Positions 32,761 through 63,910 of a DNA stretch of 64,000 nt are shown piece by piece. The DNA lies in NCBI RefSeq assembly GCF_005233835.1, contig NZ_SZQA01000010.1:124001-188000 (forward strand), in the 5' to 3' direction. The stretch's first letter is position 1, and every line of letters starts with the position of its first letter. This stretch comes from Herbidospora galbida. GTDB taxonomy: Bacteria > Actinomycetota > Actinomycetes > Streptosporangiales > Streptosporangiaceae. Under the pieces are notes generated by a model, which saw only the letters and a program-made list of their open reading frames with translations, ran no database searches and had not been told where the DNA came from. Made by a program: the position numbers and the translations under genes.

Positions 32761-32777
32761 ATCTCACACAGTGAGAT
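32761..32777. promoter_or_regulatory. Branched-chain regulon operator, ilvB site
   Basis: ATCTCAC-ACA-GTGAGAT, a perfect 7-3-7 inverted repeat (8-bp arms if flanking C/G are counted). It lies 15 bp upstream of TTGACT (32793-32798), the likely -35. Similar repeats precede a leader gene, the citramalate synthase gene, ndgR and leuC. Confidence 0.75.
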
Positions 32778-32792
32778 GTGCGTATCACTAAT

Positions 32793-32822
32793 TTGACTGG
32801 TGGCCGTCTCATCGGACAAGGT
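32793..32822 (+). promoter_or_regulatory. ilvB leader promoter
   Basis: TTGACT, an 18-bp spacer and CAAGGT end 6 nt before the leader-peptide ATG at 32829, so the leader transcript probably starts at that codon. Confidence 0.5.
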
Positions 32823-32828
32823 GGGTCC

Positions 32829-32876
32829 ATGCATCGCGGTGGGATCCTCCTCGTAGTACTTCGCAGGCGCGCCTGA
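32829..32876 (+). CDS. ilvBNC leader peptide
   Basis: The 15-codon frame encodes [15 protein letters not shown], with six consecutive Ile, Leu and Val codons. This is the hallmark of a ribosome-mediated attenuator controlled by branched-chain aminoacyl-tRNAs. Its stop lies at the 5' arm of a GGCGCGC/GCGCGCC hairpin (32866-32901) and a terminator follows. The peptide itself probably has no function. Confidence 0.88.
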
Positions 32877-32901
32877 CGAAGTCCAGAGTCCTGCGCGCGC
32901 C

Positions 32902-32936
32902 GCCCCAGCTCCGCCTTTGCGGATGGGGCATTTTTT
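32902..32936 (+). terminator. ilvB attenuator terminator
   Basis: GCCCCA-GC-TCCGC, loop, GCGGA-TGGGGC, then ATTTTTT. The true T run, rare in this DNA, supports intrinsic termination. It lies 41 bp upstream of ilvB. Confidence 0.88.
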
Positions 32937-32976
32937 ATGCCGGAACACGCCCAGCTCAGTCACAAGGAACGAGCCG

Positions 32977-34713
32977 ATGACCGAACAGATGACAGGTGCT
33001 CAGGCCCTCGTGCGGGCCCTGGAGCAGGTCGGGGTCGACACCGTGTTCGGGATCCCCGGCGGTGCGATCCTCCCCGCCTACGATCCCCTCTACGACTCCA
33101 AGAAGGTCCGGCACGTGCTCGTGCGTCACGAGCAGGGCGCCGGGCACGCCGCCGAGGGCTACGCCCAGGCCACCGGCCGGGTCGGAGTCTGCATGGCGAC
33201 CTCGGGTCCCGGCGCCACCAACCTGGTGACCCCCATCGCCGACGCCTACATGGACTCGGTGCCGATCGTGGCGATCACCGGCCAGGTCGCGTCGGCCGCC
33301 ATCGGCACCGACGCCTTCCAGGAGGCCGACATCTCCGGCATCACGATGCCGATCACCAAGCACAACTTCCTCGTCACCGACGCGGCCGACATCCCCCGCA
33401 CGATCGTCGAGGCCTTCCACATCGCGGCGAGCGGGCGACCCGGCCCCGTCCTCGTCGACATCTCCAAGGACGCGCTCCAGGCGACGACCACGTTCACCTG
33501 GCCCGTCCAGATGCAGCTTCCGGGCTACCGCCCGGTCACCCGCCCGCATTCCAAGCAGATCAGGGAGGCGGCCCGGCTCATCGCCGAGGCCAAGCGCCCT
33601 GTCCTGTACGTCGGCGGCGGCGTCCACAAGGCGCAGGCGTCGGCTGAGCTGTTCGAACTGGCCGAGCTGACCGGGATCCCGGTCATCACGACCCTGATGG
33701 CCCGGGGCACCTTCCCCGACAGCCACCGGCAGCACCTCGGAATGCCCGGCATGCACGGCACGGTCGCGGCGGTCGGCGCGCTCCAGCGCACTGATCTCAT
33801 CATCGCGCTGGGCGCCCGCTTCGACGACCGCGTCACCGGCCGGCTCGACACCTTCGCCCCGTACGCGAAGGTCGTCCACGCCGACATCGACCCGGCCGAG
33901 ATCTCCAAGAACCGCCACGCCGACGTGCCGATCGTCGGTGACTGTAAAGAGGTCATCGCCGACCTGGTCGCGGCGATCAAGGCCGGTTCCGCGCGCGGCG
34001 ACTACACCGAATGGTGGCGCCACCTCGACGCCTACCGCGAGACCTACGCCCTCGGCTACGAGACCTACGAAGACGGCTCGCTCGCGCCGCAGTACGTCAT
34101 GGAGCGCATCGGCGCCCTGGTCGGTCCCGACGCGATCTACGCCGCGGGCGTCGGCCAGCACCAGATGTGGGCCTCGCAGTTCATCGGCTACGAGAACCCG
34201 GGCTCCTTCATCAACTCCGGCGGCGCGGGCACGATGGGCTTCGCCGTCCCGGCCGCGATGGGCGCCAAGATGGGCCGTCCCGACAAGGACGTGTGGGCCA
34301 TCGACGGCGACGGCTGCTTCCAGATGACCAACCAGGAGCTCGCGACCTGCGCGCTCGAAGGCGTCCCGATCAAGGTCGCGGTCATCAACAACGGCAATCT
34401 CGGCATGGTGCGCCAGTGGCAGACGCTCTTCTATGAGCAGCGCTACAGCAACACCGACCTGCAGTCGGCCCGCCGCATCCCCGACTTCGTCAAGCTGGCC
34501 GAGGCCTACGGCTGCGTCGGCCTGCGCTGCGAGCGGCCGGAAGACGTCGACGACACCATCCGCAAGGCGATGGAGATCACCGACATGCCCGTCGTGATCG
34601 ACTTCGTGGTGCACCAGGACGCCATGGTCTGGCCGATGGTCGCCGCCGGCACCAGCAACGACGACATCAAGTACGCCCGTGACATGGCGCCGAAGTGGGA
34701 GCACGAGGACTGA
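32977..34713 (+). CDS. ilvB: Acetolactate synthase large subunit
   Basis: A 578-residue ThDP enzyme forming acetolactate and acetohydroxybutyrate, the first common step of Val, Leu and Ile synthesis. The catalytic Glu is in [20 protein letters not shown]-binding residues occur in the central domain, and the ThDP motif is GDGCFQM...[14 protein letters not shown] at 32977 ([15 protein letters not shown]) follows AAGGAACGAG; the upstream extension of the frame lies in the attenuator. The stop overlaps ilvN (TGATG). Confidence 0.97.
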
Positions 34714-35237
34714 TGAGCAGGCACACCCTGTCCGTTCTGGTCGAGAACAAGCCCGGCGTCCTCGCCCGGGTCTCGGCCCTGTTCAGCCGCCGCGGATTCA
34801 ACATCGACTCGCTCGCGGTCGGCCCGACCGAACACGCCGACGTCTCCCGCATGACGATCGTCGTCAACGTCGAGGACCTGCCGCTGGAGCAGGTCACCAA
34901 GCAGCTCAACAAGCTGGTGAACGTCCTCAAGATCGTCGAGCTCGACACCGCCCAGTCGGTGCAGCGCGAACTCATGCTGATCAAGGTGCGGGCCGACGCC
35001 GACTCGCGCAGCCACGTCCTGGAACTGGTCAACCTGTTCCGGGCGCGCTGCGTCGACGTCGCCCCCGACGCGGTCACCATCGAGGTCACCGGTACGGTCG
35101 ACAAGCTGGAGGCGTTCGTGCGCGTCCTTGAGCCGTTCGGCATCAAGGAACTCGTGCAGTCGGGCATGGTGGCCATCGGCCGCGGTGCCCGGTCGATCAC
35201 CGACCGCTCGCTCCGGGCCCTGGACCGGACCGCCTGA
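34713..35237 (+). CDS. ilvN: Acetolactate synthase small subunit
   Basis: A 174-residue regulatory subunit with an N-terminal ACT domain (LSVLVENKPGVLARVSALFSRRGFNI) that binds valine for feedback inhibition, and a C-terminal ALS_ss_C domain (RELMLIKVRAD...). ATG at 34713 overlaps the ilvB stop; an earlier in-frame GTG lacks family support. Sometimes named ilvH. Confidence 0.97.
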   Translation: MSRHTLSVLVENKPGVLARVSALFSRRGFNIDSLAVGPTEHADVSRMTIVVNVEDLPLEQVTKQLNKLVNVLKIVELDTAQSVQRELMLIKVRADADSRSHVLELVNLFRARCVDVAPDAVTIEVTGTVDKLEAFVRVLEPFGIKELVQSGMVAIGRGARSITDRSLRALDRTA

Positions 35238-35263
35238 GATAAGAACCCGAAAGGTTATTCGAA

Positions 35264-36262
35264 GTGACTGAGATCTACTACGACAACGACGCCGACCTGT
35301 CGATCATCCAGGGCCGCCACGTCGCCGTCCTGGGCTACGGCAGCCAGGGCCACGCGCACGCCCTGAGCCTGCGCGACTCCGGCGTCGACGTCCGCGTCGG
35401 ACTCCCCGAGGGCTCCAAGAGCCGGGAGAAGGTCGAAGCCGACGGCCTGCGGGTGCTCAACCCGTCCGAGGCGGTCGAAGAGGCCGACCTGACCATGATC
35501 CTCGCGCCCGACCACATCCAGCGGCACCTCTACGCCGAGCACGTGGCCCCGAACCTGGTCGAGGGCGACGCCCTCTTCTTCGGCCACGGCCTCAACATCC
35601 GCTACGGCCTGATCGAGGCCCCCGCGGGCGTCGACGTCGCCATGGTCGCCCCGAAGGGCCCCGGCCACCTGGTCCGCCGCCAGTACGCGGCCGGCCGCGG
35701 CGTGCCGTGTCTCGTGGCCGTCGAGAAGGACGCCACCGGCAACGCCTGGCCGCTCGCGCTGTCCTACGCCAAGGGCATCGGCGGCACCCGCGCGGGCGCG
35801 CTGAAGACCACCTTCACCGAGGAGACCGAGACCGACCTGTTCGGCGAGCAGGCCGTGCTCTGCGGCGGCGTGTCCGAGCTCATCAAGGCGGGCTTCGAGA
35901 CCCTGATCGAGGCCGGCTACCAGCCCGAGGTCGCCTACTTCGAGTGCCTCCACGAGATGAAGCTGATCGTCGACCTCATGTACGAGGGCGGCATCCACAA
36001 GATGTACTGGTCGGTCTCCGACACCGCCGAGTACGGCGGCTACTCGCGCGGCCCGCGCCTCATCAACGACGAGACCAAGAAGGAGATGCGCCGCATCCTC
36101 GACGAGGTTCAGTCGGGTGAGTTCGCGCGTGAGCTCGTGGCCGAGTTCGACGGCGGCCAGAAGCGCTTCCAGCAGTACCGCGACGAACTGGCCGAGCACC
36201 CGATCGAGAAGACCGGCGCCAAGCTCCGCCCGATGATGTCCTGGCTCCAGAACCAGGCGTAG
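35264..36262 (+). CDS. ilvC: Ketol-acid reductoisomerase
   Basis: A 332-residue class I enzyme that isomerises and reduces acetolactate with NADPH. The nucleotide motif is [19 protein letters not shown]; metal-binding Asp and Glu lie in [14 protein letters not shown] and the [16 protein letters not shown] segment. The GTG start is preceded by GAAAGGT about 9 nt upstream. It is 26 bp after ilvN in the ilvBNC operon. Confidence 0.97.
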
Positions 36263-36272
36263 GCACCGATCA

Positions 36273-36317
36273 CGGCCCCGTTCCTCCGAGGAAGCTTCGG
36301 AGGAACGGGGCCGTTTT
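36273..36317 (+). terminator. Terminator of ilvBNC
   Basis: CGGCCCCGTTCCTCCG and CGGAGGAACGGGGCCG form a 16-bp perfect stem followed by TTTT. Confidence 0.9.
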
Positions 36318-36336
36318 GGTGCGTGACCTGCCGATG

Positions 36337-36786
36337 TCAGGGCCACACCCACCCGGCCGGAACCGGCTCCCGCAGCACGCTGACGACCTGCCGCCGGAGC
36401 GTGGCCGGATCAGCCCCGTGGCGGGCGAGAAGATCTGGGGCCTCCTCCGCCAGTGCAAGCAAGAGGTGTTCGGTGCCGATGTACCGGTGGCCGAGGAGGT
36501 GGGCCTGGTGCCGTGCCTGCTCCAGAACCGCGGTGATCCCGTGTGTCGTCGGCGGGTCGTCGGCCTGGGGTGCGTCGGCGAGCTCGCGGGGGCCGGCGCC
36601 GAGCCTGCGCAGGCACAGGACCGCGACCCCGTTTCCGTTCTTCAGCAGGGCGGCCATGACGTGCTCGGGTGCCACCTGAGGAGCGTGCGCGGCGACCGCC
36701 TCCTGATCGGCCAGTACGAGCACTCGTTCGGCATTGGTGGTGAGGAACCGCTCGACCGGCCCTCGCAGCACTCCGCGCCGGAACAC
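36337..36786 (-). CDS. Clp N-terminal (repeat) domain protein
   Basis: A 149-residue protein with two degenerate Clp-N repeats: LADQEAVAAHAPQVAPEHVMAALL and ARHQAHLLGHRYIGTEHLLLALAEE. It has no AAA+ ATPase part, so it resembles stand-alone ClpS-like/ClpC N-domain adaptors of actinobacteria. GTG at 36786 is chosen because AGAGGAG lies 5 nt upstream; a start further up would overlap the preceding terminator. Role is inferred from the fold only. Confidence 0.82.
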   Translation of the reverse strand: MFRRGVLRGPVERFLTTNAERVLVLADQEAVAAHAPQVAPEHVMAALLKNGNGVAVLCLRRLGAGPRELADAPQADDPPTTHGITAVLEQARHQAHLLGHRYIGTEHLLLALAEEAPDLLARHGADPATLRRQVVSVLREPVPAGWVWP

Positions 36787-36815
36787 GGGGACTCCTCTCG
36801 CGACGGTGGAAATCA

Positions 36816-36856
36816 CGAAGGCCCGGCTCCCTTGATCAGGGGGAGCCGGGCCTTCG
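36816..36856 (-). terminator. Terminator after the FHA gene
   Basis: CGAAGGCCCGGCTCCC and GGGAGCCGGGCCTTCG form a perfect 16-bp stem. It lies directly after the FHA stop on the minus strand and just before the Clp-N gene. Confidence 0.85.
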
Positions 36857-36861
36857 TGCGA

Positions 36862-37398
36862 TCAAAGGGGGACGGACACCAGGAAGGCGCAGTCGCCGAA
36901 GCTGATCTCGTCACCGCTGCGGACTCGGGCCGGGCCCACCAGCCGCCACCCGTTCAGGCGGGTGCCGTTCAGTGAGCCCAGGTCGACCAGCAGCCAGTGG
37001 TCTTCTTCTCGTCGCAGTTCCGCGTGGATCCGCGAGACGGTCAGGTCGGCCAGCACCAGGTCGCAGGCCGATCCTCGCCCCACGACGTACCGGATCCGCG
37101 TGTCTGCCGGCAGTGCGAGGCGGGGGAGCTTGGGGCGGCGCCAGGCCGCCCGTAGCCGGGTGCTGAAGTCGGACACCGAGCCGACGAGGTCGGTGGCCCG
37201 CCGCCGGAACCTGCCCCGCTGGGGCAGGTCGGCGACGAGTTGTTCGAGCTCTGCGGCGCTGCGGGCGCGCAGGGCCTGGTCGACCCTGCCGACGAACGTC
37301 TCCATCGAGAGGTGGCCTTCGGCCGCCCGTTCACGTAGCTCGTTGAGCGCACGCTCGCGGTCCTCGTCAGAGGCGCGCACATGTGGCTCGGAGCTCAT
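36862..37398 (-). CDS. DUF1707-FHA domain protein
   Basis: A 178-residue cytoplasmic protein. The N-terminal DUF1707 helical domain (VRASDEDRERALNELRERAAEGHLSMETF) is followed by a basic linker and a C-terminal FHA domain (YVVGRGSACDLVLADLTVSRIHAELR ... LVDLGSLNGTRLNG), with phosphothreonine-binding Arg, Ser and His present. It could read out phosphorylation by Hanks-type kinases, such as those at 2.4-8 kb, but that link is inference. GATACT lies 6 nt before the ATG, consistent with a leaderless transcript. Confidence 0.9.
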   Translation of the reverse strand: MSSEPHVRASDEDRERALNELRERAAEGHLSMETFVGRVDQALRARSAAELEQLVADLPQRGRFRRRATDLVGSVSDFSTRLRAAWRRPKLPRLALPADTRIRYVVGRGSACDLVLADLTVSRIHAELRREEDHWLLVDLGSLNGTRLNGWRLVGPARVRSGDEISFGDCAFLVSVPL

Positions 37399-37449
37399 GT
37401 CTGGAGTATCCGCTTTCCGTCAGGCCGGTGTCCAGATAGCCCCTAAACG

Positions 37450-38334: not shown

Positions 38335-38490
38335 GAACTTCCTTCCAGGGGTGGGGTTCCGAAGCTCTGGAATGGAACCGAAGTATGGCCTGGTCGGAGC
38401 TGTCATGCGAGGAAAACCGTCATATTCGGTGACCTGGTCGAGATCTTCCCGTTACGGAATCCCTGATGGCCACGTTCCAGACGAGGTTCA

Positions 38491-38506
38491 TGTGATTTAC
38501 GTCACA
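38491..38506. promoter_or_regulatory. CRP-type site
   Basis: TGTGA-TTTACG-TCACA is a perfect match to the CRP-family consensus. It overlaps the end of the MFS gene and lies about 160 bp upstream of the CAP-protein start on the same strand, so it may control that gene. Confidence 0.5.
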
Positions 38507-39822: not shown

Positions 39823-39867
39823 GGCCGCAATTCAAGCCCAATCACGGCAAATCGGATAGGGAATCGA

Positions 39868-42659: not shown

Positions 42660-42674
42660 TCCCCGCCACACGGA

Positions 42675-42709: not shown

Positions 42710-42711
42710 CC

Positions 42712-42728
42712 GTCTCATGAGATGAGAT
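42712..42728. promoter_or_regulatory. Branched-chain regulon operator, leuB-leader site
   Basis: GTCTCAT-GAG-ATGAGAT, 7-3-7 inverted repeat with one mismatched outer pair. It lies about 50 bp upstream of the predicted leader start. It also shares its 5' part with a wider inverted repeat, GCCGTCTC ... GAGACGGC (42709-42751), which encloses GTAGG-TCGT-CCTAC. Confidence 0.65.
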
Positions 42729-42756
42729 GGTAGGTCGTCCTACGAGACGGCTGGGG

Positions 42757-42762: not shown

Positions 42763-42769
42763 GACAGGG

Positions 42770-42811
42770 ATGCGTCGGGTTCTCGTAATTACCTGCCGCG
42801 GCGGGGTCTGA
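42770..42811 (+). CDS. Branched-chain leader peptide upstream of the small-protein gene
   Basis: The 13-codon frame encodes MRRVLVITCRGGV, with consecutive Val, Leu, Val and Ile codons. It resembles the ilvB and citramalate synthase leaders. Its last codons form the 5' arm of a very stable hairpin (42796-42837; CCGCGGCGGGGTC with GACCCGCCGCGG, one bulged G), so ribosome position could decide its folding. Confidence 0.7.
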   Translation: MRRVLVITCRGGV

Positions 42812-42886: not shown

Positions 42887-42997
42887 ATGTACGACATGTA
42901 TCCGTGGAACCGTCCCGAAGACACCGACGACGAGGTCGCCGAGGCCCTGCAGACGGCCCTCGACCGGCGCGACAACGGCGGCTCGCCCGAGCGCTGA
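42887..42997 (+). CDS. Unrecognised 36-residue acidic protein
   Basis: ATG preceded by GGAG at a 6-nt spacing. The protein starts MYDMYPWNRPEDTDDEVAEA and ends with a predicted helix containing ALDRRDNGG. Codon third positions are almost all G or C, like real genes here. It is located between serA and leuB, after a leader peptide and operator that tie it to branched-chain control. The aromatic N-terminus and acidic amphipathic helix could bind a protein partner. No family was recognised. Confidence 0.65.
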   Translation: MYDMYPWNRPEDTDDEVAEALQTALDRRDNGGSPER

Positions 42998-43015
42998 CGC
43001 GACATTCCGTATGGT

Positions 43016-43034
43016 GAGATCGTTGTTCGATCTC
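43016..43034. repeat. Inverted repeat in the leuB promoter
   Basis: GAGATCG-TTGTT-CGATCTC, perfect 7-bp arms, over the -35 region of leuB. The left half with its flank (GGTGAGATCG) resembles the right half of the citramalate synthase operator. Confidence 0.5.
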
Positions 43035-43059
43035 CGAGACAGCCCGCTAAGGTACCTCC

Positions 43060-44106
43060 ATGGATTCGAGCAACATCCGCCTGGCAGTGATCCCCGGCGA
43101 CGGGATCGGCACCGAGGTCGTCGCGGAGGGCCTCAAAGTTCTCGACGCGGTCGGCGTCAAGGTGGAGTCCACCCACTACGACCTGGGTGCGGCCCGCTAC
43201 CACGCCACGGGTGAGACCCTGCCCGACTCGGTCCTCGCCGAGCTGCGCGGGTTCGACGCGATCCTGCTCGGCGCGGTCGGCGACCCGAGCGTGCCGCCGG
43301 GGGTGCTGGAGCGCGACCTGCTGCTGCGCCTACGCTTCGAGCTCGACCACTACGTCAACCTGCGCCCGGTGAAGCTCTTCCCGGGCGTGGAGACCCCGCT
43401 CGGCAAGGCCCGCCCCGAAGACGTCGACATGGTCGTCGTCCGCGAGGGCACCGAGGGCCCCTACGCCGGCGCGGGCGGCGTGCTCCGCAAGGGCACCCCC
43501 CACGAGATCGCCACGCAGGACTCGGTCAACACCGCCTACGGCGTCGAGCGCGTCGTCCGCTACGCCTTCGAGAAGGCCGCCGGCCGCGAGCGCCGTCACC
43601 TCACGCTGGTCCACAAGACCAACGTGCTGACCTTCGCCGGCGACCTGTGGTCGCGTACGGTCAAGCGGGTCGCCGAGGAATACCCGCAGGTCACCACCGA
43701 CTACTGCCACGTCGACGCGGCGTCGATGTTCTTCGTCTCGCAGCCGCAGCGGTTCGACGTGATCGTCACCGACAACCTGTTCGGCGACATCATCACCGAC
43801 ATCGGCGCCGCCATCGCCGGTGGCATCGGCCTGTCGGCCAGCGGCAACGTCAACCCCGACCGCACCGCGCCGAGCATGTTCGAGCCGGTCCACGGCTCGG
43901 CCCCCGACATCGCCGGGCAGGGCAAGGCCGACCCGAGCGCGACCATCCTGTCGGTCGCCATGCTGCTCGACCACATCGGCCAGGCCGAGGCCGCCGCCCG
44001 CGTCGAGCAGGCGGTCGCCGACGACCTCGTCGAGCGCGCCGGCGCATGGGCGGCCCGCACCACCCGGGAGATCGGCGACGACATCGCCGCCCGAGTAGCC
44101 GGCTGA
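43060..44106 (+). CDS. leuB: 3-isopropylmalate dehydrogenase
   Basis: A 348-residue NAD-dependent oxidative decarboxylase of leucine synthesis. Motifs: [39 protein letters not shown], the substrate-metal region [21 protein letters not shown] and [21 protein letters not shown]. It is the actinobacterial short form. TAAGGT at 43048-43053 ends 6 nt before the ATG, so its own transcript is probably leaderless; readthrough from the upstream leader is also possible. Confidence 0.97.
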
Positions 44107-45973: not shown

Positions 45974-45990
45974 ATCTTACTTGGTGAGAT
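45974..45990. promoter_or_regulatory. Branched-chain regulon operator, citramalate synthase site
   Basis: ATCTTAC-TTG-GTGAGAT, 7-3-7 inverted repeat with one G-T type mismatch. It lies between the divergent methyltransferase and the citramalate synthase leader, about 43 bp upstream of the predicted leader transcript start (-10 TATGGT at 46013-46018). Confidence 0.72.
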
Positions 45991-46033: not shown

Positions 46034-46075
46034 ATGTTCAACGGTCTGCTCATTATTGGCAGGCGCGCCGGCTGA
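46034..46075 (+). CDS. Leader peptide of the citramalate synthase gene
   Basis: The 13-codon frame encodes MFNGLLIIGRRAG with consecutive Leu-Leu-Ile-Ile codons. The end (agg cgc gcc ... tga cg) matches that of the ilvB leader. A GCGCGCCGGCTG/CAGCCAGGCGCGC hairpin (46063-46098) and a terminator follow directly. Leader sequence GGTCTGC at 46043-46049 is complementary to GCAGACC at 46097-46103, which includes the terminator 5' arm, giving a competing fold. Confidence 0.87.
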   Translation: MFNGLLIIGRRAG

Positions 46076-46098
46076 CGGATCATTCCAGCCAGGCGCGC

Positions 46099-46129
46099 AG
46101 ACCTCTCACGCCCGTGAGGGGTCTTTTTG
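46099..46129 (+). terminator. Attenuator terminator before citramalate synthase
   Basis: AGACC-T-CTCACG, loop CC, CGTGAG-G-GGTCT, followed by TTTTTG. The U-G pair is allowed, giving a 12-bp stem. It ends about 31 bp before the gene. Confidence 0.9.
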
Positions 46130-46159
46130 TTTGTCTCGCAATCACCCCAAGGAACCGAG

Positions 46160-47734
46160 ATGGCCGACGACCGCTTCCACGTGTACGACACCACGCTCCG
46201 CGACGGCGCCCAGCAGGAGGGCCTCAACCTCTCCGTTGCCGACAAGATCGCCGTCGCCCGTCACCTGGACGCACTGGGGGTCGGCTTCATCGAGGGCGGT
46301 TGGCCGGGCGCCAACCCCAAGGACACGGAGTTCTTCCGGCGCGCTCAAACAGAGCTCGACCTGAAGCACGCGCAACTCGCGGCGTTCGGCGCGACCCGCC
46401 GGGCCGGAGTGAAGGCCGCCGACGACCCACTGGTGGCCGCCCTGCGCGACTCCGGCGCGCCCGTCGTGACCCTTGTCGCCAAGAGTCACGACCGGCACGT
46501 GGAACTGGCCCTCCGCACGACTCTGGAGGAGAACCTCGCGATGATCCGCGACACGGTCTCCCACCTGCGTGCGGAGGGTCAGCGGGTGTTCCTCGACGCG
46601 GAACACTTCTTCGACGGCTACAAGTCCAACCCGGCCTACGCCCTGGAGGTGCTCCGGACGGCGGCCGAGGCCGGGGCGTCGGTGATCGCCCTGTGTGACA
46701 CCAACGGCGGGATGCTGCCCGACGAGCTGGCGGACGTCGTACACAACGCGGTTGCGACCAGCGCCCGGATCGGCATCCACTGCCACGACGACACCGGCTG
46801 CGCGGTCGCCAACACCCTCGCGGCGGTGAAGGCCGGGGCGACCCACGTGCAGGGCTGCGCCAACGGCTACGGCGAGCGCTCGGGCAACGCGAACCTGTTC
46901 ACCGTGGTCGCCAACCTCCAGCTCAAGCGGGGCTTCGACCTCGTGCCGCCGGAGGCGCTGCGGGACATGACCCGGATCGCCCACGCCATCACCGAGGTCA
47001 CCAACGTGACCCCCAACTCCCACGCCCCCTACGTGGGCGCCTCGGCCTTCGCCCACAAGGCCGGCCTGCACGCCTCGGCGATCAAGGTCGACCCGAACCT
47101 CTACCAGCACATCGACCCGGCCGAGGTCGGCAACGACATGCGCATGCTGGTCTCCGACATGGCCGGCCGCGCCTCGGTCGAGCTGAAGGGCCGCGAGCTC
47201 GGCTACGACCTCACCGGCGAGCAGTCGCGCGAACTGGTCGACCGGGTCAAGGACCTGGAGTCGCGCGGCCACACCTTCGAGGCCGCCGACGCCTCCTTCG
47301 AACTGCTGCTCCGCGACACCCTCCACGGCGAGCGCCGCCGCCACTTCACGGTGGAGTCGTGGCGCGTGATCGTCGAACGCCGCCCGACAGGCGAGGTCGT
47401 CAGCGAGGCGACCGTGAAGGTCCACGCCAAGGGCGAGCGCATCGTCGCGACCGGCGAGGGCAACGGCCCCGTGAACGCCCTCGACCGGGCGGTCCGGCTG
47501 GCGCTGGAGAAGCTCTACCCCGAGCTGGCGACCGTCGAGCTGATCGACTTCAAGGTCCGGATCCTGGAGGGCACCCACGGCACCGACGCGGTCACCCGCG
47601 TCCTGGTGACGTCGAGCGACCCGAAGGGCGACTGGAGCACGGTCGGGGTGGACGAGAACATCATCGAGGCGTCCTGGCACGCCCTGGAGCAGGCCGTGAC
47701 GTTCGGCCTGCTCCGCGCCGGCTACGAAATCTGA
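46160..47734 (+). CDS. cimA: Citramalate synthase
   Basis: A 524-residue LeuA-superfamily protein that condenses pyruvate and acetyl-CoA to (R)-citramalate, a threonine-independent entry to isoleucine. The TIM-barrel start (VYDTTLRDGAQQEGLNLSVADK) with Arg-Asp, HCHDDTGCAVAN and GCANGYGERSGNANL are CimA-type; the C-terminal regulatory domain (RILEGTHGTDAVTRVLVTSSD) binds a feedback effector. The LeuC/LeuD and LeuB enzymes could process the product. ATG at 46160 follows AAGGAACCGAG. Confidence 0.92.
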   Translation: MADDRFHVYDTTLRDGAQQEGLNLSVADKIAVARHLDALGVGFIEGGWPGANPKDTEFFRRAQTELDLKHAQLAAFGATRRAGVKAADDPLVAALRDSGAPVVTLVAKSHDRHVELALRTTLEENLAMIRDTVSHLRAEGQRVFLDAEHFFDGYKSNPAYALEVLRTAAEAGASVIALCDTNGGMLPDELADVVHNAVATSARIGIHCHDDTGCAVANTLAAVKAGATHVQGCANGYGERSGNANLFTVVANLQLKRGFDLVPPEALRDMTRIAHAITEVTNVTPNSHAPYVGASAFAHKAGLHASAIKVDPNLYQHIDPAEVGNDMRMLVSDMAGRASVELKGRELGYDLTGEQSRELVDRVKDLESRGHTFEAADASFELLLRDTLHGERRRHFTVESWRVIVERRPTGEVVSEATVKVHAKGERIVATGEGNGPVNALDRAVRLALEKLYPELATVELIDFKVRILEGTHGTDAVTRVLVTSSDPKGDWSTVGVDENIIEASWHALEQAVTFGLLRAGYEI

Positions 47735-54392: not shown

Positions 54393-54424
54393 GGCGCCAC
54401 CTTATGAGGCACTAGCCTGGGACG

Positions 54425-56555: not shown

Positions 56556-56560
56556 CCCAC

Positions 56561-56602
56561 CGGCCGCCCGCCCGATCAGGGCAGGCGGCCGTTTTCATTT
56601 TT
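56561..56602 (+). terminator. Terminator of gltX
   Basis: CGGCCGCC-C-GCCC, loop GATCA, GGGC-A-GGCGGCCG, followed by TTTTCATTTTT. It begins 5 bp after the stop. Confidence 0.88.
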
Positions 56603-56645
56603 CCGTTACGGCTCCGCCCACCCCGGCCCCGCCCGCCGCCTCCGC
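56601..56645 (+). repeat. Dispersed repeat, copy 3
   Basis: Starts TTCCGTTACGGCTCCGCCCA and continues with a CCCCGCCCGCCG-type segment, nearly the same as the copy after gatB over 45 bp. It starts right at the T run of the gltX terminator. Confidence 0.65.
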
Positions 56646-56776
56646 ACCGCCCCGCGACCGGCGCTCCTCACCTGCTCCCGCCTCCCGCCGCGACGCCGGA
56701 GCAGGCGTCGACCCCAGGGTCCGGGGCCGGAAAGACCAGGGTCCACAGGGCGTCGCGTGGCTCCCACACTGGGCGC

Positions 56777-57355: not shown

Positions 57356-57358
57356 TCG

Positions 57359-59329
57359 TCAGAGGAGCCCGCGCCTCTCCAGCAGCGGCTCGATGCGCGG
57401 GTCGCGGCCCCGGAAGGCGCGGAAGGCGCCCAGCGGGTCGGTGCTGCCGCCCTTCGACAGCAGCCGCGACCGGAAGATGTCGCCGTTCTCCCTGGTCAGG
57501 CCGCCGTTCTCGGTGAACCAGTCGACCGTGTCGGCGTCGAGGACCTCGCTCCAGATGTAGGAGTAGTAGCCCGCCGCGTAGCCGCTGGCCCAGATGTGCG
57601 CGAAGTAGGTGCTGCGGTAGCGCGGCGGGACGGCGGGCAGGTCGACCCCGGCGCTCCGCAGGGCGGCGACCTCGAAGGTCTCGGCGTCGCCGCCCTCGTA
57701 GTCGGTGTGCCAGGCCCAGTCGAGCAGGGTGGCGGCCAGGTATTCGACCGTCGCGAAGCCCTGGTTGAACTTCTGGGCCTCCAGCATCCGGTCGACCAGT
57801 TCCTGGGGCATCGGCTCGCCGGTCTCGTGGTGCCTGGCGTAGTTGGCCAGGATCTCGGGATGGGTCGCCCACATCTCGTTGACCTGGGACGGGTACTCCA
57901 CGAAGTCGCGCGGCACCGACGTGCCGGAGAAGCGGGGGAAGCGCACGTCGGAGAACAGGCCGTGCAGGGCGTGGCCGAACTCGTGGAACATCGTGTTGAC
58001 CTCGTCGAAGGTCATCAGGGTCGGCTCGCCCTTGACGATGTTGAGGTTGTTGACCACCACCGGCCGGTAACCCTTCAGGCCCGACTGGTGGACCAGGCTG
58101 TTCATCCACGCCCCGCCGCGCTTGGACGCCCGCGCGTGGAAGTCGCCCAGGAACAGGCCCAGCGGCGAGCCGTCTTCGTTGGCGACCTCCCAGACCCGCA
58201 CGTCGGGGTGGTAGCCGATGAGGTCGGGGCGCTCGGTGAACGAGAGGCCGTAGAGGCGGTGGGCGGCGTGGAAGACGCCGTCGACCAGGACGCGGTTCAG
58301 CTCGAAGTAGGGGCGCATCGCGGCGCTGTCGATGTCGTAGCGGGCCTGGCGCACCTTCTCGGCGTAGAACGACCAGTCCCAGGCCTCGATCGGGAAGCCG
58401 GCCTGCTCCTCCAGCGCCTGCTGCTCGCGGCGGGCGTTGGCGACGGCGGGGGTGACGAGCTTGTCGAGCATCTCGGTGACCGCGCCGGTGGAGCCGGCGG
58501 TCTGGTCGGCCAGGGCGTATTCGGCGTGGTTGCGGTAGCCGAGCAGGTTGGCCCGTTCGCGGCGGAGCCGGGCGATGCGGGTGATGAGCTCGGCGTTGGC
58601 CGCCCCCCGGCCGGTGGAGGCGCGGTGGACGCGCTCGCGCAGCGACCGGTCGGTCAGCGACGACAGCGCGGGCTGGCCCGTCGGGAGGACCAGCGTGATC
58701 AGGTACTTCCCGTCGAGGTCCCGCGCGCTCGCGGTCTCGCGCAGGCCGGCGATCTCGTCGGCCGACAGGCCGTCGAGGGCCGACTCGTCGTCGACCGCGA
58801 CCGCGCGCGCGTTGGTGTCGTTGAGCAGGTTGAACTGGAAGGTCGCCGCCAGGCTGGACAGTTCCTCGTTGATCGCGCGGAGCCTGGCCTGCTGGTCGTC
58901 GTCGAGCTCGGCGCCGGCGCGTACGAAGTCGGTCAGGTAGCGCTGCAGGAGCCACTGCTCTTCCGGTACGTCGGTCTCCACGGCCTTGAGCCGCGCGTAG
59001 AGCGCCGGATTGAGGGCGACGGAGTCGTTGTGGGCCGCCAGCTTCGGGGTGATCTCCTGCTGGATCTCCTGGATGCGCGGGGTGGTGTCGCTGCTCGCCT
59101 GGTTGAAGAAGACGATGGAGACCCGCTGGAGCATCTCGCCGGCCCGTTCGAGGGCCTCTAGCGTGTTGGCGAAGGTCGCGGGCTCCGGCTGCGTCGCGAT
59201 GGCCTCGACCTCGGCGAGGTGGTCGGCCATGGCCCGTTCGAACGCCGGAACGTAATGTTCCTCCCTGATCTCCGCGAACGGCGGCAGCCGGTAGGGCAGG
59301 GTGCTGGGCGTGAGGAACGGGTTGGTCAT
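57359..59329 (-). CDS. M3 family peptidyl-dipeptidase
   Basis: A 656-residue zinc metallopeptidase like Dcp/oligopeptidase A. The HExxH zinc motif is in TMFHEFGHALHGLFSD, with the third Glu in the following helix (about 25 residues on). It has no signal peptide and is probably cytoplasmic, degrading short peptides. Start ATG (MTNPFLTPSTLPYRLPPF) is typical of the family. Confidence 0.93.
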   Translation of the reverse strand: MTNPFLTPSTLPYRLPPFAEIREEHYVPAFERAMADHLAEVEAIATQPEPATFANTLEALERAGEMLQRVSIVFFNQASSDTTPRIQEIQQEITPKLAAHNDSVALNPALYARLKAVETDVPEEQWLLQRYLTDFVRAGAELDDDQQARLRAINEELSSLAATFQFNLLNDTNARAVAVDDESALDGLSADEIAGLRETASARDLDGKYLITLVLPTGQPALSSLTDRSLRERVHRASTGRGAANAELITRIARLRRERANLLGYRNHAEYALADQTAGSTGAVTEMLDKLVTPAVANARREQQALEEQAGFPIEAWDWSFYAEKVRQARYDIDSAAMRPYFELNRVLVDGVFHAAHRLYGLSFTERPDLIGYHPDVRVWEVANEDGSPLGLFLGDFHARASKRGGAWMNSLVHQSGLKGYRPVVVNNLNIVKGEPTLMTFDEVNTMFHEFGHALHGLFSDVRFPRFSGTSVPRDFVEYPSQVNEMWATHPEILANYARHHETGEPMPQELVDRMLEAQKFNQGFATVEYLAATLLDWAWHTDYEGGDAETFEVAALRSAGVDLPAVPPRYRSTYFAHIWASGYAAGYYSYIWSEVLDADTVDWFTENGGLTRENGDIFRSRLLSKGGSTDPLGAFRAFRGRDPRIEPLLERRGLL

Positions 59330-59477
59330 CGGCCGGACTCCTTCGCGAAACGGGACTTTCAGCTTGTCACACCGGTCATCGGCGAGGCGATCGGCTTTCG
59401 TTTTGGCAGTGGGCCCGGAGCTGGGCTATTCTTTCGGAGTCGCGAGCGATAAGCCCCCCGGGGAACGAGTTCGCTGA

Positions 59478-59549
59478 TGGGGTATGGTGTAATTGGCAAC
59501 ACGACTGATTCTGGTTCAGTTATTCTAGGTTCGAGTCCTGGTACCCCAG
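59478..59549 (+). tRNA. tRNA-Gln (CTG)
   Basis: Acceptor TGGGGTA pairs with TACCCCA; anticodon stem ACTGA/TCAGT encloses TTCTGGT with anticodon CTG at 59511-59513; T loop GGTTCGAGTCC. The 3' CCA is not encoded. Confidence 0.96.
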
Positions 59550-59567
59550 CGCACGTAGTGCAGCCTT

Positions 59568-59640
59568 GCTCCCGTCGTCTAGTGGCCTAGGACGCCGCCC
59601 TCTCAAGGCGGTAACGGCGGTTCGAATCCGCTCGGGAGTA
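59568..59640 (+). tRNA. tRNA-Glu (CTC), first copy
   Basis: Acceptor GCTCCCG/CGGGAGT (G-U closing pair), anticodon stem CCGCC/GGCGG with anticodon CTC at 59602-59604, T arm GGCGG-TTCGAAT-CCGCT. Discriminator A. Confidence 0.96.
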
Positions 59641-59669
59641 CGAGATTTCCCTCTCACCAGCAGTTCTAG

Positions 59670-59742
59670 GGCTCCGTCGTCTAGCGGCCTAGGACGCCGC
59701 CCTCTCAAGGCGGTAGCGGCGGTTCGAATCCGCTCGGGGCTA
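59670..59742 (+). tRNA. tRNA-Glu (CTC), second copy
   Basis: Same body as the first copy with acceptor GGCTCCG/CGGGGCT and a changed D-arm base. Anticodon CTC at 59704-59706. The two acceptor stems differ by compensating changes, so both are likely functional. Confidence 0.95.
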
Positions 59743-59749
59743 CATCGAA

Positions 59750-59780
59750 ACGGGCTTCCTCACGGAAGTCCGTTTTTTTG
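59750..59780 (+). terminator. Terminator of the tRNA cluster
   Basis: ACGG-G-CTTCC, loop TCAC, GGAAG-T-CCGT followed by a seven-T run. Confidence 0.92.
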
Positions 59781-59814
59781 TTGTCCTCAGATTGGATAGT
59801 GCTACTATCGATAC

Positions 59815-60759
59815 ATGAGCTATCCAGTCAGCCTGCTTGCCGACGGACGTGAAGAGGTCATCGCCGGAGCCGTGGTGCCCCACGGTGTGACCCTGATGGG
59901 CTGGGAGCGCAAGGCCCACGGGTGGTGCCGGGGAGACGCCTGCGTCCCGGCGTTCCGCTCCGCCGCGGCCGAGACCGCCGAGGGGGTCGACGTCGTCGCG
60001 TTCGCCGAACTCCTCGGGCGGCCCGTGGTGGCGGGCGAGGGGATCATCGCGGTCGGCGAGCCCGTCGCGGCCGATCTCGGCACCGCGCCCGACTTCACCC
60101 TCGACGGGTTCACCCTGTCGTCGCTGCGGGGCCGGAAGGTGTTTCTGGTCTTCTGGGCGTCGTGGTGCGGGTGCCGCTACGACCTGCCGGCCTGGCTGGC
60201 CCTCGGCGAGGAGCTGCCCGTGGAGATCGTCCCGATCTCCCTCGACCGGGCCCGTGCCGACGCCGCCGCCTGGCACGACGGCCCCGTCGACGTCGAGGGG
60301 GTGGTGGCCGAGCTCTACAACGTCGTCAACGTGCCGACCGTGGTCTGGATCGACGAGGACGGCCGCGTCGCCCGCCCCCAGGACACGATGACCGCGACCG
60401 ACACCTTCCGCTCCATGAACGGCCTGTCGTCGGAGGCCGCCGTCGCGGCGCTGCGCCACTGGGCGCTGACCGGCGAGTCGGGCGCCTCGGGCCGGAGCCT
60501 GCGCCGGGCCACCGACGAGGAGCGCGCCGCCCGCCTGCACGCCCGGATCGCCGCCTGGGCCTTCCGCGAGGGCCGTCCCGACCAGGCCCGCCACCACCTG
60601 GCGGCCGCCGCCGACCTGGCCCCGCACGACGTCGCGATCAGGCGCGGGCTGATGTCGCTCGACGGAATCGACCCGTTCGGCGACGCCTACTTCGACCTCA
60701 AGGTCGAACTGGAGGACGCGGGCATCGCGATCTACCGCCCGTTGCCCGACTGGTCGTGA
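59815..60759 (+). CDS. Thioredoxin-fold (TlpA/ResA-like) protein with C-terminal helical domain
   Basis: A 314-residue cytoplasmic protein, no signal peptide. Residues 1-85 contain two cysteines (WCRGDACVPAF) and a cofactor-like GEGIIAVGEPVAADLG segment. A redoxin domain follows (APDFTLDGFTLSSLRGRKVFLVFWASWCGCRYDLPAW), where the usual CxxC is C-G-C, then a cis-Pro VPTVVW and a TPR-like tail (residues 245-300). Only one spacer residue between the cysteines makes classical disulfide exchange uncertain. A strong leaderless promoter (TACTAT, 6 nt before the ATG; TTGTCC 16 bp further) is visible. Confidence 0.78.
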   Translation: MSYPVSLLADGREEVIAGAVVPHGVTLMGWERKAHGWCRGDACVPAFRSAAAETAEGVDVVAFAELLGRPVVAGEGIIAVGEPVAADLGTAPDFTLDGFTLSSLRGRKVFLVFWASWCGCRYDLPAWLALGEELPVEIVPISLDRARADAAAWHDGPVDVEGVVAELYNVVNVPTVVWIDEDGRVARPQDTMTATDTFRSMNGLSSEAAVAALRHWALTGESGASGRSLRRATDEERAARLHARIAAWAFREGRPDQARHHLAAAADLAPHDVAIRRGLMSLDGIDPFGDAYFDLKVELEDAGIAIYRPLPDWS

Positions 60760-60800
60760 CGATTTGCCACCGGCCAGCCCTGGGTTCCAAAATTAGACTC

Positions 60801-61298
60801 ATGACGACCACGATGCAGAGCCGGACCCACTCCTGGGCGCCCCCGACGATCCCCGCCGACGTCGCCGAGATGTCCGGGCTGGAGTTCCTCCAGGCCATGC
60901 TCGACGGGAAGATCCCGGCGCCGCCCATCGCGGGAACCCTGGGCTTCACCATGCTCAAGGTCGAGAAGGGGCTGGCTCTGTTCGAGGGGGAGACGGGAGA
61001 GCATCAGTACAACCCGATGGGCACCGTCCACGGCGGCTACTTCGCCACCCTGCTCGACTCGGCTCTCGGGTGCGCGATCATGACGGCCCTGCCGGCCGGG
61101 CGGGCGTACACGACGGTGCAGCTCAACATCAACATGATCAGGCCCGCGTTCGCGCACACCGGGCCGCTGCGCTGTGAGGCGAAGACCCTGCACGTCGGCC
61201 GGACCACCGCCACCGCCGAAGGGTCGCTCGTGGGCGTGAACGACGGCAAGCTCTACGCCCACGGCACCACGACCTGCGCGGTCTTTCCGTTGAAGTAG
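60801..61298 (+). CDS. PaaI-family thioesterase
   Basis: A 165-residue hotdog-fold acyl-CoA thioesterase. NPMGTVHGGYFATLLDSALGCAI is the catalytic signature with the HGG motif. Substrate unknown, often aromatic acyl-CoA. The start is uncertain: TAGACT (60794-60799) lies immediately before the first ATG, so initiation at the second ATG (60813) is possible. Confidence 0.86.
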   Translation: MTTTMQSRTHSWAPPTIPADVAEMSGLEFLQAMLDGKIPAPPIAGTLGFTMLKVEKGLALFEGETGEHQYNPMGTVHGGYFATLLDSALGCAIMTALPAGRAYTTVQLNINMIRPAFAHTGPLRCEAKTLHVGRTTATAEGSLVGVNDGKLYAHGTTTCAVFPLK

Positions 61299-61303
61299 AC
61301 GGG

Positions 61304-62995
61304 TCAGTCGCCGGAGCGAGCCTTGAACAGGGCCCGCTTGGCGGCCTTGCCGACGTTGCGGTCGGGGTGGGCCTCGGCGATCGCCTCAAGCAGTTCGTCG
61401 AGGTGGGGGTGGCGGACCTTCCAGATCACCTCGAGCAGGCTGATCAGGTCGGTCGCCGGGCCGATGTCTTCGAGGCTGCTGACGAACTCGGCGCGGCCGA
61501 GGCCCGCCGAGATGGTCCACATGTCGAGGATCAGCCAGTGGGTGTCGGCCTGGGTCGGCTCGGGCGCGTCGTCGACCTCGAGCTGGGTGAGGTGGGTCGC
61601 GGCGTAGGAGCGCAGCGACTCCTCGTTGAGGGCCTTCTTCCAGGCCGGGATCGCCACCTCGCCGAGCTGACCGACCAGGGAGGCGGCCTGGACGCGTACG
61701 AGAGCGTCGGACTCGTCTTCCACGGCGGCGCCGAGCAGTTCCTCGGCGGCCTGGGCGGGCTCGCGCAGGCGCATCCAGGCGGCGAACTCGGCGTCGGCCT
61801 CCTCTTCGGACATGTCGGCGCTGAATGACAGCAGGTCGTGGGCCGTCATGGCGTCGATGGCCGGGCGGGCGTCGATGTCGAGGTCGGCCTCGTCAACGAG
61901 GTGGACGACGCCCTCGGTGCCCAGCGAGGTGAGCTGGACCGTGTCGCCCTCGACCTCGGCCATGCCGTAGCCGGTCAGCCAGTCGAGGACCGGGACCAGC
62001 GGGTCGCCGGCCGCCTCCCAGGCGGCGTCGCCCAGGTCGTCGTAGTCGCGGACCGCCTCGGCCAGCTCCTCGCGCAGGTCGTCGAGCGCCTTCTGGCCGC
62101 CGCTCAGCAGGACGCGGATCAGGGTCTCGCGGGTCAGGCCCGACAGGGCCACGGTCAGATCGTCGTCGTCGAGCTCGGGGTCGCCGTAGTCGATCGAGCC
62201 GAGGCCGAGCATCCAGGCGTCGAGGACGTCTTCGTCGTCGTCGAACGGCCAGGCGGCGGTGTCGGAGTCGATGCTCACGGTGTCTTCACCCGAGGGGGTG
62301 ACGAACTCGAGGTCGATCGCCAGGTTCCACAGGTTCCACAGCTTCTGCGGGCCGGTGAGGCCGAGGGCCGTCACGGCCTCTTCGACCTCGGCGTCGGTCA
62401 GCAGCGTCGACTGGCCGACCTTGCGGTCGGTGCCGATCCAGACCGACAGGTCGCGGGCCGCGGTGATCAGCGGCACCCGGCGGGCGTCGGCGGCCAGCTC
62501 GGCGTCGGGGCGCAGCCGCAGGGTCGGCAGCTCGGCGAGCTCGTCGGCGAACGGCTCGAAGTCGCCGAGGCCCTCGTCCTCCTCGCCGTCCTCCTCGTCG
62601 TCCCACTCGGTCTCGCCGATGGCGTCTTCCATGCGGTCGACGAAGTCGTCTTCGAGCGCGTCGAGCTCGTTGAGCAGCAGTTCGAGGCGGTCGGAGGCGG
62701 CCGTCAGGCGGCCGGTCTCGTGGAGGAAGGTCAGGTAGGACCGCAGCGAGGGCACCATCGCGTCGGCGGCGGCGTCGGGGTCTTCGACCACCTGTGGCAG
62801 ACGGTCGAGCATGAGGGGGCGCAGATCGTCGCGGCGCCAGTGGCCCACGTCGGAACGCTGGCTCAGGCGGTGCCACAGGGCGGCCGAGCCGACCAGGTCG
62901 GGGTCGCTTTCGGGTGCGTTGGCGGGCACCCAGAGAAGGAATTCCTGGAGCAGTGGACGCAGTTCAGCCGCGGCTGCCTCAATGCGATCTGTCAC
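61304..62995 (-). CDS. Large acidic HEAT-like hypothetical protein
   Basis: A 563-residue cytoplasmic protein, strongly acidic (a WDDEEDGEEDEGLGD-like run near residue 130). The C-terminal part contains HEAT-type helices (DALVRVQAASLVGQLGEVAIPAWKKAL ... HLDELLEAIAEAHPDRNVGKAAKRALFKA). The family is known from actinobacteria without function; a scaffold role is plausible. GTG start at 62995. Confidence 0.75.
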   Translation of the reverse strand: MTDRIEAAAAELRPLLQEFLLWVPANAPESDPDLVGSAALWHRLSQRSDVGHWRRDDLRPLMLDRLPQVVEDPDAAADAMVPSLRSYLTFLHETGRLTAASDRLELLLNELDALEDDFVDRMEDAIGETEWDDEEDGEEDEGLGDFEPFADELAELPTLRLRPDAELAADARRVPLITAARDLSVWIGTDRKVGQSTLLTDAEVEEAVTALGLTGPQKLWNLWNLAIDLEFVTPSGEDTVSIDSDTAAWPFDDDEDVLDAWMLGLGSIDYGDPELDDDDLTVALSGLTRETLIRVLLSGGQKALDDLREELAEAVRDYDDLGDAAWEAAGDPLVPVLDWLTGYGMAEVEGDTVQLTSLGTEGVVHLVDEADLDIDARPAIDAMTAHDLLSFSADMSEEEADAEFAAWMRLREPAQAAEELLGAAVEDESDALVRVQAASLVGQLGEVAIPAWKKALNEESLRSYAATHLTQLEVDDAPEPTQADTHWLILDMWTISAGLGRAEFVSSLEDIGPATDLISLLEVIWKVRHPHLDELLEAIAEAHPDRNVGKAAKRALFKARSGD

Positions 62996-63080
62996 CCCGC
63001 CAGCCTAGGGCCAACGGGCGAGGCCATCTAACAGCTTCTCGGGGCGGGTTCACCGCGCGAGCCCTTGTTCCGCGCGCCGT

Positions 63081-63809
63081 TCAGGAGCCGTTCGCACCGG
63101 CCCGGCGCATCGCCTCGGTGATGCGGTCGGCGGCGCTCACGACGGGGGCGGCGTGGAGGCGGCCGGGGGTGCGGGTGAGGCGCTCTATGGGGCCCGAGAC
63201 CGACACGGCGGCGATCACCTTGCCGCCCACGCCCCGGATGGGCGCCGACACCGAGGCGACCCCCTGCTCGCGCTCGCCGACGCTGTGGGCCCAGCCGCGC
63301 CGCCGGACGCTGGCCAGGGTCGCGGCGGTGAACTTGGCGCCGCGCAGGCCGCGGTGGAGCCGGTCGGGCTCCTCCCAGGCCAGCAGGATCTGGGCGGCCG
63401 ACCCTGCGCTCATCGGCAGCGCCGACCCGACGGGAACGGTGTCACGCAGGCCGCTGGCGCGTTCCGCCGCCGCGACGCACACCCGCTCGTCGCCCTGGCG
63501 GCGGTAGAGCTGGGCGCTCTCGCCGGTGAGGTCGCGCAGCTGGGTCAGGACGGGACCCGCGACCGCGAGCAGGCGGTCTTCGCCGGCCGCAGTGGACAAC
63601 TCGGACAAACGGGGGCCCAATATGAATCGGCCCTGTGTGTCGCGGGAGACGATCCGGTGATGCTCCAGGGCCACCGCGAGGCGGTGAGCAGTGGGTCGGG
63701 CCAGCCCGGTGGCCTGGACCAACTGCGCCAGCGACGCCGGTCCGGCCTCCAGGGCGTTGAGCACGAGGACGGCCTTGTCGAGTACGCCGACTCCGCTAGA
63801 GTTGTCCAT
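63081..63809 (-). CDS. ndgR: IclR-family regulator, NdgR/LeuR type
   Basis: A 242-residue IclR protein: N-terminal winged helix (LDKAVLVLNALEAGPASLAQLVQATGLARPTAHRLAVALEHHRI) and C-terminal effector domain (LRDTVPVGSALPMSAGSAAQILLAWEE). Its position divergent from leuC identifies it as the NdgR/LeuR orthologue that controls leucine genes in Streptomyces and relatives. CAGTAT on the minus strand ends 6 nt before the ATG (leaderless), and a regulon operator lies over its -15 to -31 region, suggesting autoregulation. Confidence 0.9.
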   Translation of the reverse strand: MDNSSGVGVLDKAVLVLNALEAGPASLAQLVQATGLARPTAHRLAVALEHHRIVSRDTQGRFILGPRLSELSTAAGEDRLLAVAGPVLTQLRDLTGESAQLYRRQGDERVCVAAAERASGLRDTVPVGSALPMSAGSAAQILLAWEEPDRLHRGLRGAKFTAATLASVRRRGWAHSVGEREQGVASVSAPIRGVGGKVIAAVSVSGPIERLTRTPGRLHAAPVVSAADRITEAMRRAGANGS

Positions 63810-63823
63810 ACCCCGATACTGCC

Positions 63824-63840
63824 GTCTCGCTTATTGAGAT
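63824..63840. promoter_or_regulatory. Branched-chain regulon operator, ndgR site
   Basis: GTCTCGC-TTA-TTGAGAT, 7-3-7 arrangement with imperfect outer pairs. It lies between the ndgR -10 and its upstream region, and forms part of a ~38-bp sequence repeated 70 bp away in front of leuC. Confidence 0.6.
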
Positions 63841-63893
63841 GCAACCGCAGTAGTGGCGGTTAGAAGATACAGTGTCCATATCCCGATATATCA

Positions 63894-63910
63894 GTCTCAT
63901 CATAAGAGAC
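63894..63910. promoter_or_regulatory. Branched-chain regulon operator, leuC site
   Basis: GTCTCAT-CAT-AAGAGAC; outer five bases of each arm pair perfectly. It lies 32-48 bp upstream of the leuC ATG. TGTCCATA and CCCGATA words precede it, exactly as in the ndgR copy. Confidence 0.65.

Follow-up and report, generated by a model that had tools for sequence, protein, structure and literature searches.

Predicted NdgR operators upstream of branched-chain amino acid genes in Herbidospora galbida

Introduction

A stretch of 64,000 nucleotides from Herbidospora galbida (contig NZ_SZQA01000010.1, positions 124,001 to 188,000; the whole stretch is hereafter called the window) carries five similar inverted repeats near branched-chain amino acid genes, together with ndgR, the gene of an IclR-family regulator. 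Are these repeats the operators of the NdgR encoded beside them, and how would they act? A preliminary description of the window had listed the repeats under one pattern, RTCTYRYNNNRWGAGAY, and had proposed them as the binding motif of NdgR, activator-like at the biosynthetic promoters and repressor-like at ndgR. The question matters because, in actinomycetes, NdgR governs the supply of branched-chain amino acids and with it the branched fatty acids of the membrane (PMC10331944). In Streptomyces coelicolor, chromatin immunoprecipitation sequencing (ChIP-seq) placed NdgR at 19 loci, its targets including ilvB, leuB and ndgR-leuC, and yielded a 15-bp motif (Kim 2015, PMC4340878). NdgR is termed an activator of these genes in that species (PMC10331944). 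From the sequence, we conclude that the window holds a real, well-conserved set of predicted NdgR operators. Most of this biology is known already; a cleaner form of the operator and some candidate targets are new.

Five repeats in the window and in the genome

The window scan found the pattern exactly at 32761-32777, 42712-42728, 45974-45990 and 63894-63910, and with one mismatch at 63824-63840, so all five places listed beforehand were borne out. Every site is 17 bp long with RTCT..AGAY arms, and the flanking genes are ilvB, ilvN, ilvC, serA, leuB, ilvE, citramalate synthase (cimA), leuC and one IclR-family regulator. A CR-N5-YG core is also found, but TA (cimA) or AG (leuC side) replaces CR or YG in one arm. 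The dyad itself stood; the exact consensus proposed for it was slightly off, and the sequences of relatives are better fitted by RTCTCR-N5-YGAGAY.

Allowing up to two mismatches gave no enrichment in the window (19 matches versus 15.88 expected, with 19 reached by 24 of 100 shuffles). Given that these counts are no better than those of shuffles, loose matches are uninformative and the signal sits in the near-exact sites. The genome-wide scan that had been proposed as a check was run on 8,312,967 bases. The original pattern has six exact places; four are the sites in the window and the remaining two (C23:4428 and C108:6424) fall inside predicted coding frames. With at most one mismatch, there were 38 forward matches genome-wide versus 10 for the reversed pattern. 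The refined pattern has 14 exact places outside the window, and 9 of the 12 examined are inside predicted coding frames. Those not in coding frames are on C41 (before thrC), C46 and C55, and also on C68 (between frames); the C41 place was the only one of them taken into the conservation test.

Conservation of the dyad in the order

We scored operators by the number of matches at the 12 defined positions of RTCTCR-N5-YGAGAY and counted sites at a score of at least 10 or at least 11. The order sample consisted of 121 searched genomes of Streptosporangiales, from which the 30 best-matching loci were used for each gene, own genome included. A distant order sample of 19 genomes was picked from the remainder of that set, and the class sample comprised 40 genomes from 28 families outside the order. 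The search upstream of leuB extended over 750 bases.

Among the 30 nearest order loci for each gene, the dyad stood upstream at 11-12 of 12 in 30 for ndgR, 29 for ilvB, 29 for cimA and 20 for leuB. The coding control gave 0 matches in 147,058 coding bases of the same loci, and the reversed-sequence control gave 0 loci, except for leuB (1/30). In addition, the cores varied while the arms stayed: ilvB showed 21 different operator sequences and cimA 18. Conservation upstream of orthologues, the second check proposed beforehand, was found in most of the nearest order loci at all four genes. In the distant order genomes, the dyad was present at ilvB in 17 and at cimA in 10, and all 18 that possess ndgR have a site there at a score of at least 10.

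The putative ndgR operator and the NdgR protein

The regulator and its putative operator are placed as follows.

63081..63809, minus strand: ndgR, IclR-family regulator (domain matches)
63824..63840, no strand assigned: putative NdgR autoregulatory operator; it fills the 17-base spacer between -35 TTGCAT and -10-like CAGTAT

The protein has the IclR helix-turn-helix and C-terminal domains, and its gene is divergent from leuC. A single match at E<=1e-40 was found in each of 120 of the 121 order genomes, own included. The motif R[PA]T[AV][HY]R, which from knowledge of the fold we take to be the recognition helix, is present in 40/40 class NdgR proteins. Its form RPTAHR occurs in 29 of these 40 and in 80/80 Streptomycetaceae.

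The placing of the operator within the promoter was examined in 48 order genomes. A -10-like hexamer was present at the ndgR operator in 47 and TTG[CAT] stood directly before it in 37. In the class genomes, a site just before ndgR at a score of at least 10 was found in 39/40. Among the matches listed for Streptomycetaceae ndgR loci, GTTTCA-N5-TGAGAC (score 11) lies 31 bases before the start in 80/80. The regular expression for the -10 matched 0 of these 80; GAGTAT, which it disallows, stands there in the three sequences viewed. Over 238 residues, the NdgR of class genome G204 shares 100% identity with the Streptomyces smyrnaeus protein, and the genus of this genome was taken as Streptomyces. 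The conserved spacing (the -10-like hexamer in 47 of 48 order genomes, the site in 39 of 40 class genomes) supports the repressor-like placing at ndgR claimed in the preliminary description.

Promoters and leaders of ilvB, leuB and cimA

At the three biosynthetic promoters, we recorded the operator, a second element downstream of it and the leader that follows. These leader peptides and terminators behind the operators had no place in the preliminary account.

32761..32777, no strand assigned: putative NdgR operator of ilvBNC, ATCTCACACAGTGAGAT (score 11-12 in 29/30 nearest and 17/19 distant order genomes)
32782..32787, plus strand: second half-site (direct repeat) GTATCA, consensus GTCCCA, 21 bases after the operator start
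32793..32822, plus strand: ilvB promoter, -35 TTGACT at 32793-32798 and -10-like CAAGGT at 32817-32822 (read from sequence; TTGAC conserved)
32829..32876, plus strand: ilvB leader peptide of 15 protein letters (reading frame)
32902..32936, plus strand: ilvB terminator hairpin and T run (folding)
32977..34713, plus strand: ilvB, acetolactate synthase large subunit (domain matches)
42712..42728, no strand assigned: putative NdgR operator of the leuB leader promoter, GTCTCATGAGATGAGAT (perfect in 7/7 sampled genomes of the genus, own included)
42732..42748, no strand assigned: second, weaker copy AGGTCGTCCTACGAGAC, 10 of 12, 20 bases downstream
42770..42811, plus strand: leader peptide MRRVLVITCRGGV before leuB (identical in 7/7 genomes of the genus)
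43060..44106, plus strand: leuB, 3-isopropylmalate dehydrogenase (domain matches)
45974..45990, no strand assigned: putative NdgR operator of cimA, ATCTTACTTGGTGAGAT (29/30 nearest, 10/19 distant order genomes)
46034..46075, plus strand: cimA leader peptide MFNGLLIIGRRAG with adjacent Ile codons (reading frame)
46063..46129, plus strand: putative cimA attenuator, with helix P1 46063-46098, terminator 46099-46124 and a T run (folding, covariation)
46160..47734, plus strand: cimA, citramalate synthase (TIGR00977, 649.7 bits, cut-off 450; frame 46127-47734)

Spacing was determined in 57 ilvB and 43 cimA promoters; 13 of 70 ilvB and 25 of 68 cimA promoters were excluded, being without a recognised leader or a site of at least 10. 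Distances were counted from leader-peptide starts, not from mapped transcript starts. The operator centre was 59-62 bases before the leader start in 45/57 ilvB promoters (60 in this genome) and 52-54 bases before it in 29/43 cimA promoters (52 in this genome). At leuB in this genome, it is 50 bases before the leader-peptide start. These conserved distances support the activator-like placing proposed for ilvB, leuB and cimA. Since the ilvB leader of Streptomyces lividans is reported as leaderless (PMC8079986), the operator centre would fall near -60.

Half-sites were searched with six permitted variants within 18 bases. For background, these upstream regions were divided into 960 windows of 18 nt, with the genuine half-sites left in, and 51 of the windows held a variant. 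A variant was found at offset 21 or 22 from the operator start in 37/57 ilvB promoters, mostly as GTCCCA followed by TTGAC (-35), and at offset 21 in 28/43 cimA promoters.

Leaders with a run of at least four I/L/V were present in 60 of 70 ilvB upstreams. The folding z was -1.08 for the 51-nt ilvB hairpin alone and -2.07 for the whole leader, and -4.93 for the whole cimA leader. Ile-Ile leaders were present in 56 of 68 cimA upstreams; four Streptomyces were missed by the filter, and three of these do have Ile-Ile leaders. At cimA, a leader frame with end-product codons is followed by a terminator, the arrangement of an attenuator. Two cimA helices, one of them the terminator, had changes on both sides at several pairs among 51 distinct sequences, a count uncorrected for kinship and made without a shuffle control. 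No mutually exclusive antiterminator helix was found in the cimA leader, the two supported helices being adjacent rather than exclusive. Nor did the leader region match any Rfam family at gathering scores. The pairing GGUCUGC:GCAGACC was considered as a cimA antiterminator, judged by eye, and rejected since Streptomyces leaders lack such pairing.

The region before leuB has two further elements. A small frame at 42888-42998, between the leuB leader and leuB, ends in ...ALQTALDRRDNGGSPER and has no Pfam or NCBIfam match; in 34/70 loci, a small frame bearing a [DE]RRD[NQG][GR] motif lies upstream of leuB. Weak operator-like repeats at 43004-43045, directly upstream of leuB, suggest a second leuB promoter.

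The site on the leuC side

63873..63910, minus strand: partial copy, diverged, of the operator and start region of ndgR; its operator part, 63894-63910, lies towards leuC (alignment versus shuffles)

The alignment score of this copy was reached by 0 of 1000 shuffles in each of the nine loci chosen, and the second copy is common to nearby genera. The leuC-side site was found in 20 of the 30 nearest loci. In the congener locus L031, it abuts the Shine-Dalgarno sequence directly. The activator-like place ascribed to this site therefore fell, given the Shine-Dalgarno contact, its presence in only 20/30 loci and the finding that it repeats, in diverged form, the operator and start of ndgR. The site may be a second ndgR operator, a roadblock for leuC, or both.

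A candidate operator at thrC

The place on C41 lies before thrC (threonine synthase, TIGR00260); the operator-like site is at C41:26606, and the region 26606-28071 of that contig in G000 holds the gene together with the elements in front of it. Among the 15 nearest genomes, 13 have the site at 11-12, each with TAnnnT 28 bases on, and one more shows that spacing at a score of 10. In the farther 15 genomes, seven reach at least 11 and none has a -10-like hexamer at that spacing. Because the spacing is missing in the farther half, we claim a thrC operator for the nearest 15 genomes only. The thrC coding control, 33,600 bases long, gave seven matches, each of them at the same codon position. An S-adenosylmethionine (SAM) riboswitch lies between the thrC operator and the gene here and is upstream of thrC in 9/9 relatives examined (29 fetched).

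Elsewhere in the window, ARAGORN called a selenocysteine tRNA at 22844-22915 and Rfam reported none at gathering score. The call is possibly a false positive.

Discussion

Judged from the letters, it is highly probable that the five repeats are operators of the NdgR encoded at 63081-63809, with a scheme of activation, autorepression and leader control. The operator assignment made in the preliminary description is well supported by phylogenetic footprinting, the class-wide ndgR operator and the conserved recognition helix. The geometry it gave fits ilvB (60 bases), leuB (50), cimA (52) and ndgR, and fails at leuC.

In the proposed mechanism, an NdgR dimer would bind the 17-bp dyad RTCTCR-N5-YGAGAY. 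A weaker copy or half-site lies 20-21 bases, or two turns, farther on at ilvB, cimA and leuB and touches the -35 at ilvB. Given this second element, a dimer of dimers would probably sit upstream of RNA polymerase, a position that suggests activation. At ndgR, the operator occupies the 17-base spacer between the -35 and the -10, so that NdgR would shut off its own gene. The ilvB, leuB and cimA transcripts would begin with short leader-peptide frames that contain Ile, Leu and Val codons, and at ilvB and cimA a terminator is present as well. Since the operators are followed by leader peptides and terminators, the supply of branched-chain amino acids probably adjusts both initiation and elongation.

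Several observations weigh against this assignment. First, the refined 17-mer is unspecific alone. It has 17 exact places in the genome, only three of them among the five sites, and at one mismatch it gave 351 matches versus 66 for the reversed pattern in the whole genome. Second, the dyad at 11-12 fades outside the order (ilvB 5/21, cimA 1/19, leuB 4/21); at class level TTG[CAT] is directly before the ndgR operator in only 22/39 and a -10-like hexamer right after it in 27/39. Third, regulator and site do not always go together. G002 possesses NdgR yet is without the ilvB site, and cimA is without the dyad in 8 of the 18 distant order genomes having NdgR. In favour of the assignment, the order genome without an NdgR match, G108, has no site of at least 10 at ilvB or cimA, but it is one genome with diverged genes and hence weak evidence. 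Finally, the published NdgR target ilvD had a perfect site in 0 of 30 order loci and a score of 11 in four. As a regulon member in this order, ilvD was set aside as unsupported, there being no perfect site in the 30 loci.

We considered whether NdgR could repress all these promoters. LtbR of Corynebacterium glutamicum reportedly acts as a repressor, and the repressor-like placing at ndgR, together with a second half-site touching the ilvB -35, would agree with such a role. However, the centre of the strong site lies about 60 bases ahead of the start of the ilvB leader, a spacing that is conserved, and activation is reported in S. coelicolor. General repression is therefore unlikely.

We regard it as quite improbable that the 17-mer belongs to a different regulator and that NdgR uses only the published 15-bp GTCCR-N5-YGGAC-type motif. 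The S. coelicolor ChIP motif is indeed 15 bp, and exact GTCCR-N5-YGGAC 15-mers were found at leuB of all four Streptomyces examined and of G149 (another family); G219 has one at cimA, and in G160 and G132 one lies far upstream of ndgR. However, among the matches listed, the 17-mer is directly before ndgR in 80/80 Streptomycetaceae and an exact 15-mer is within 300 bases in 2/80, and both motifs have the CR-N5-YG core. Moreover, the ChIP match TCCCACCCACTTGAC, whose peak was taken as ilvB from genome order, corresponds to the promoter-proximal half-site and the -35 of Streptomyces upstreams; this half-site ends in the -35 TTGAC, and 21 bases before the match lies a 17-mer-like site, which scores 10 or 11 of 12 in three of the four Streptomyces. 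The exact leuB 15-mers in four Streptomyces indicate that a contracted operator form also exists.

Chance palindromes or intergenic hairpins are a scarcely credible explanation of the repeats: loose matches in the window are no commoner than in shuffles, but the arms are kept while the cores vary, the promoter distance is fixed and the repeats are absent from coding controls.

With the five repeats taken as NdgR operators, we lean towards a wider view. The class-wide operator would be the 17-mer plus a promoter-proximal half-site, and the 15-bp motif would in part reflect either that half-site or a variant whose arms are each one base shorter. Within the genus and among its closest relatives, control by NdgR would extend to both 2-oxobutanoate routes for isoleucine (citramalate synthase and threonine synthase), each with control at the RNA level, namely the isoleucine leader peptide of cimA and the SAM riboswitch of thrC. 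A clean operator at a conserved position would make the NdgR regulon easier to predict and gives the exact bases to mutate. It also hints at the reason for the poor match between the motif derived from ChIP and the sequences of relatives.

Comparison with published systems

The system resembles the NdgR regulon of S. coelicolor, in which an orthologous regulator lies beside leuCD and the targets include ilvBNC, leuB-ilvE and ndgR-leuC (PMC4340878). Sites are likewise present here at ilvB, leuB and ndgR-leuC, and the target promoters named in the preliminary description, cimA apart, are published NdgR targets in that species. Two differences stand out. The published motif is a 15-bp GTCCAC...GGAC, a further point against our assignment, whereas a 17-mer is found here and none of the five sites contains the 15-bp form. 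In addition, Table 2 of that report names ilvD, cys genes and metF, with no citramalate synthase or threonine synthase in it (PMC4340878). In the literature searched, cimA and thrC are not shown as NdgR targets, the supplementary regulogs of PMC8222616 lying outside that scope.

For 94 IclR groups, tandem sites with centres 18-22 nt apart are described, with the NdgR/LtbR motif given as KTYCRSMWYSYGRRM (Suvorova 2021, PMC8222616). That motif shares its CR-N5-YG core with the 17-mer, but here the arms extend one base further on each side (RTCT...AGAY). A second site at 18-22 nt from the first is found at ilvB and cimA, as half-sites, and at leuB, as a weaker copy.

The ilvB leader and terminator are of the same kind as those known from actinobacterial ilvB (PMC1262725, PMC8079986). 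The cimA leader is not among the eight leaders named for S. lividans, nor in the available accounts of PMC1262725 and PMC8079986, and no cimA attenuator was found in the literature searched. The predicted conserved isoleucine leader with a terminator at cimA would thus be an addition to known biology. Already known are NdgR at ilvB, leuB and ndgR-leuC (PMC4340878) and tandem IclR sites (PMC8222616). To these our analysis adds the predicted 17-bp form, the half-site 21 bases on that touches the ilvB -35, and candidate operators at cimA and, in near relatives, at thrC.

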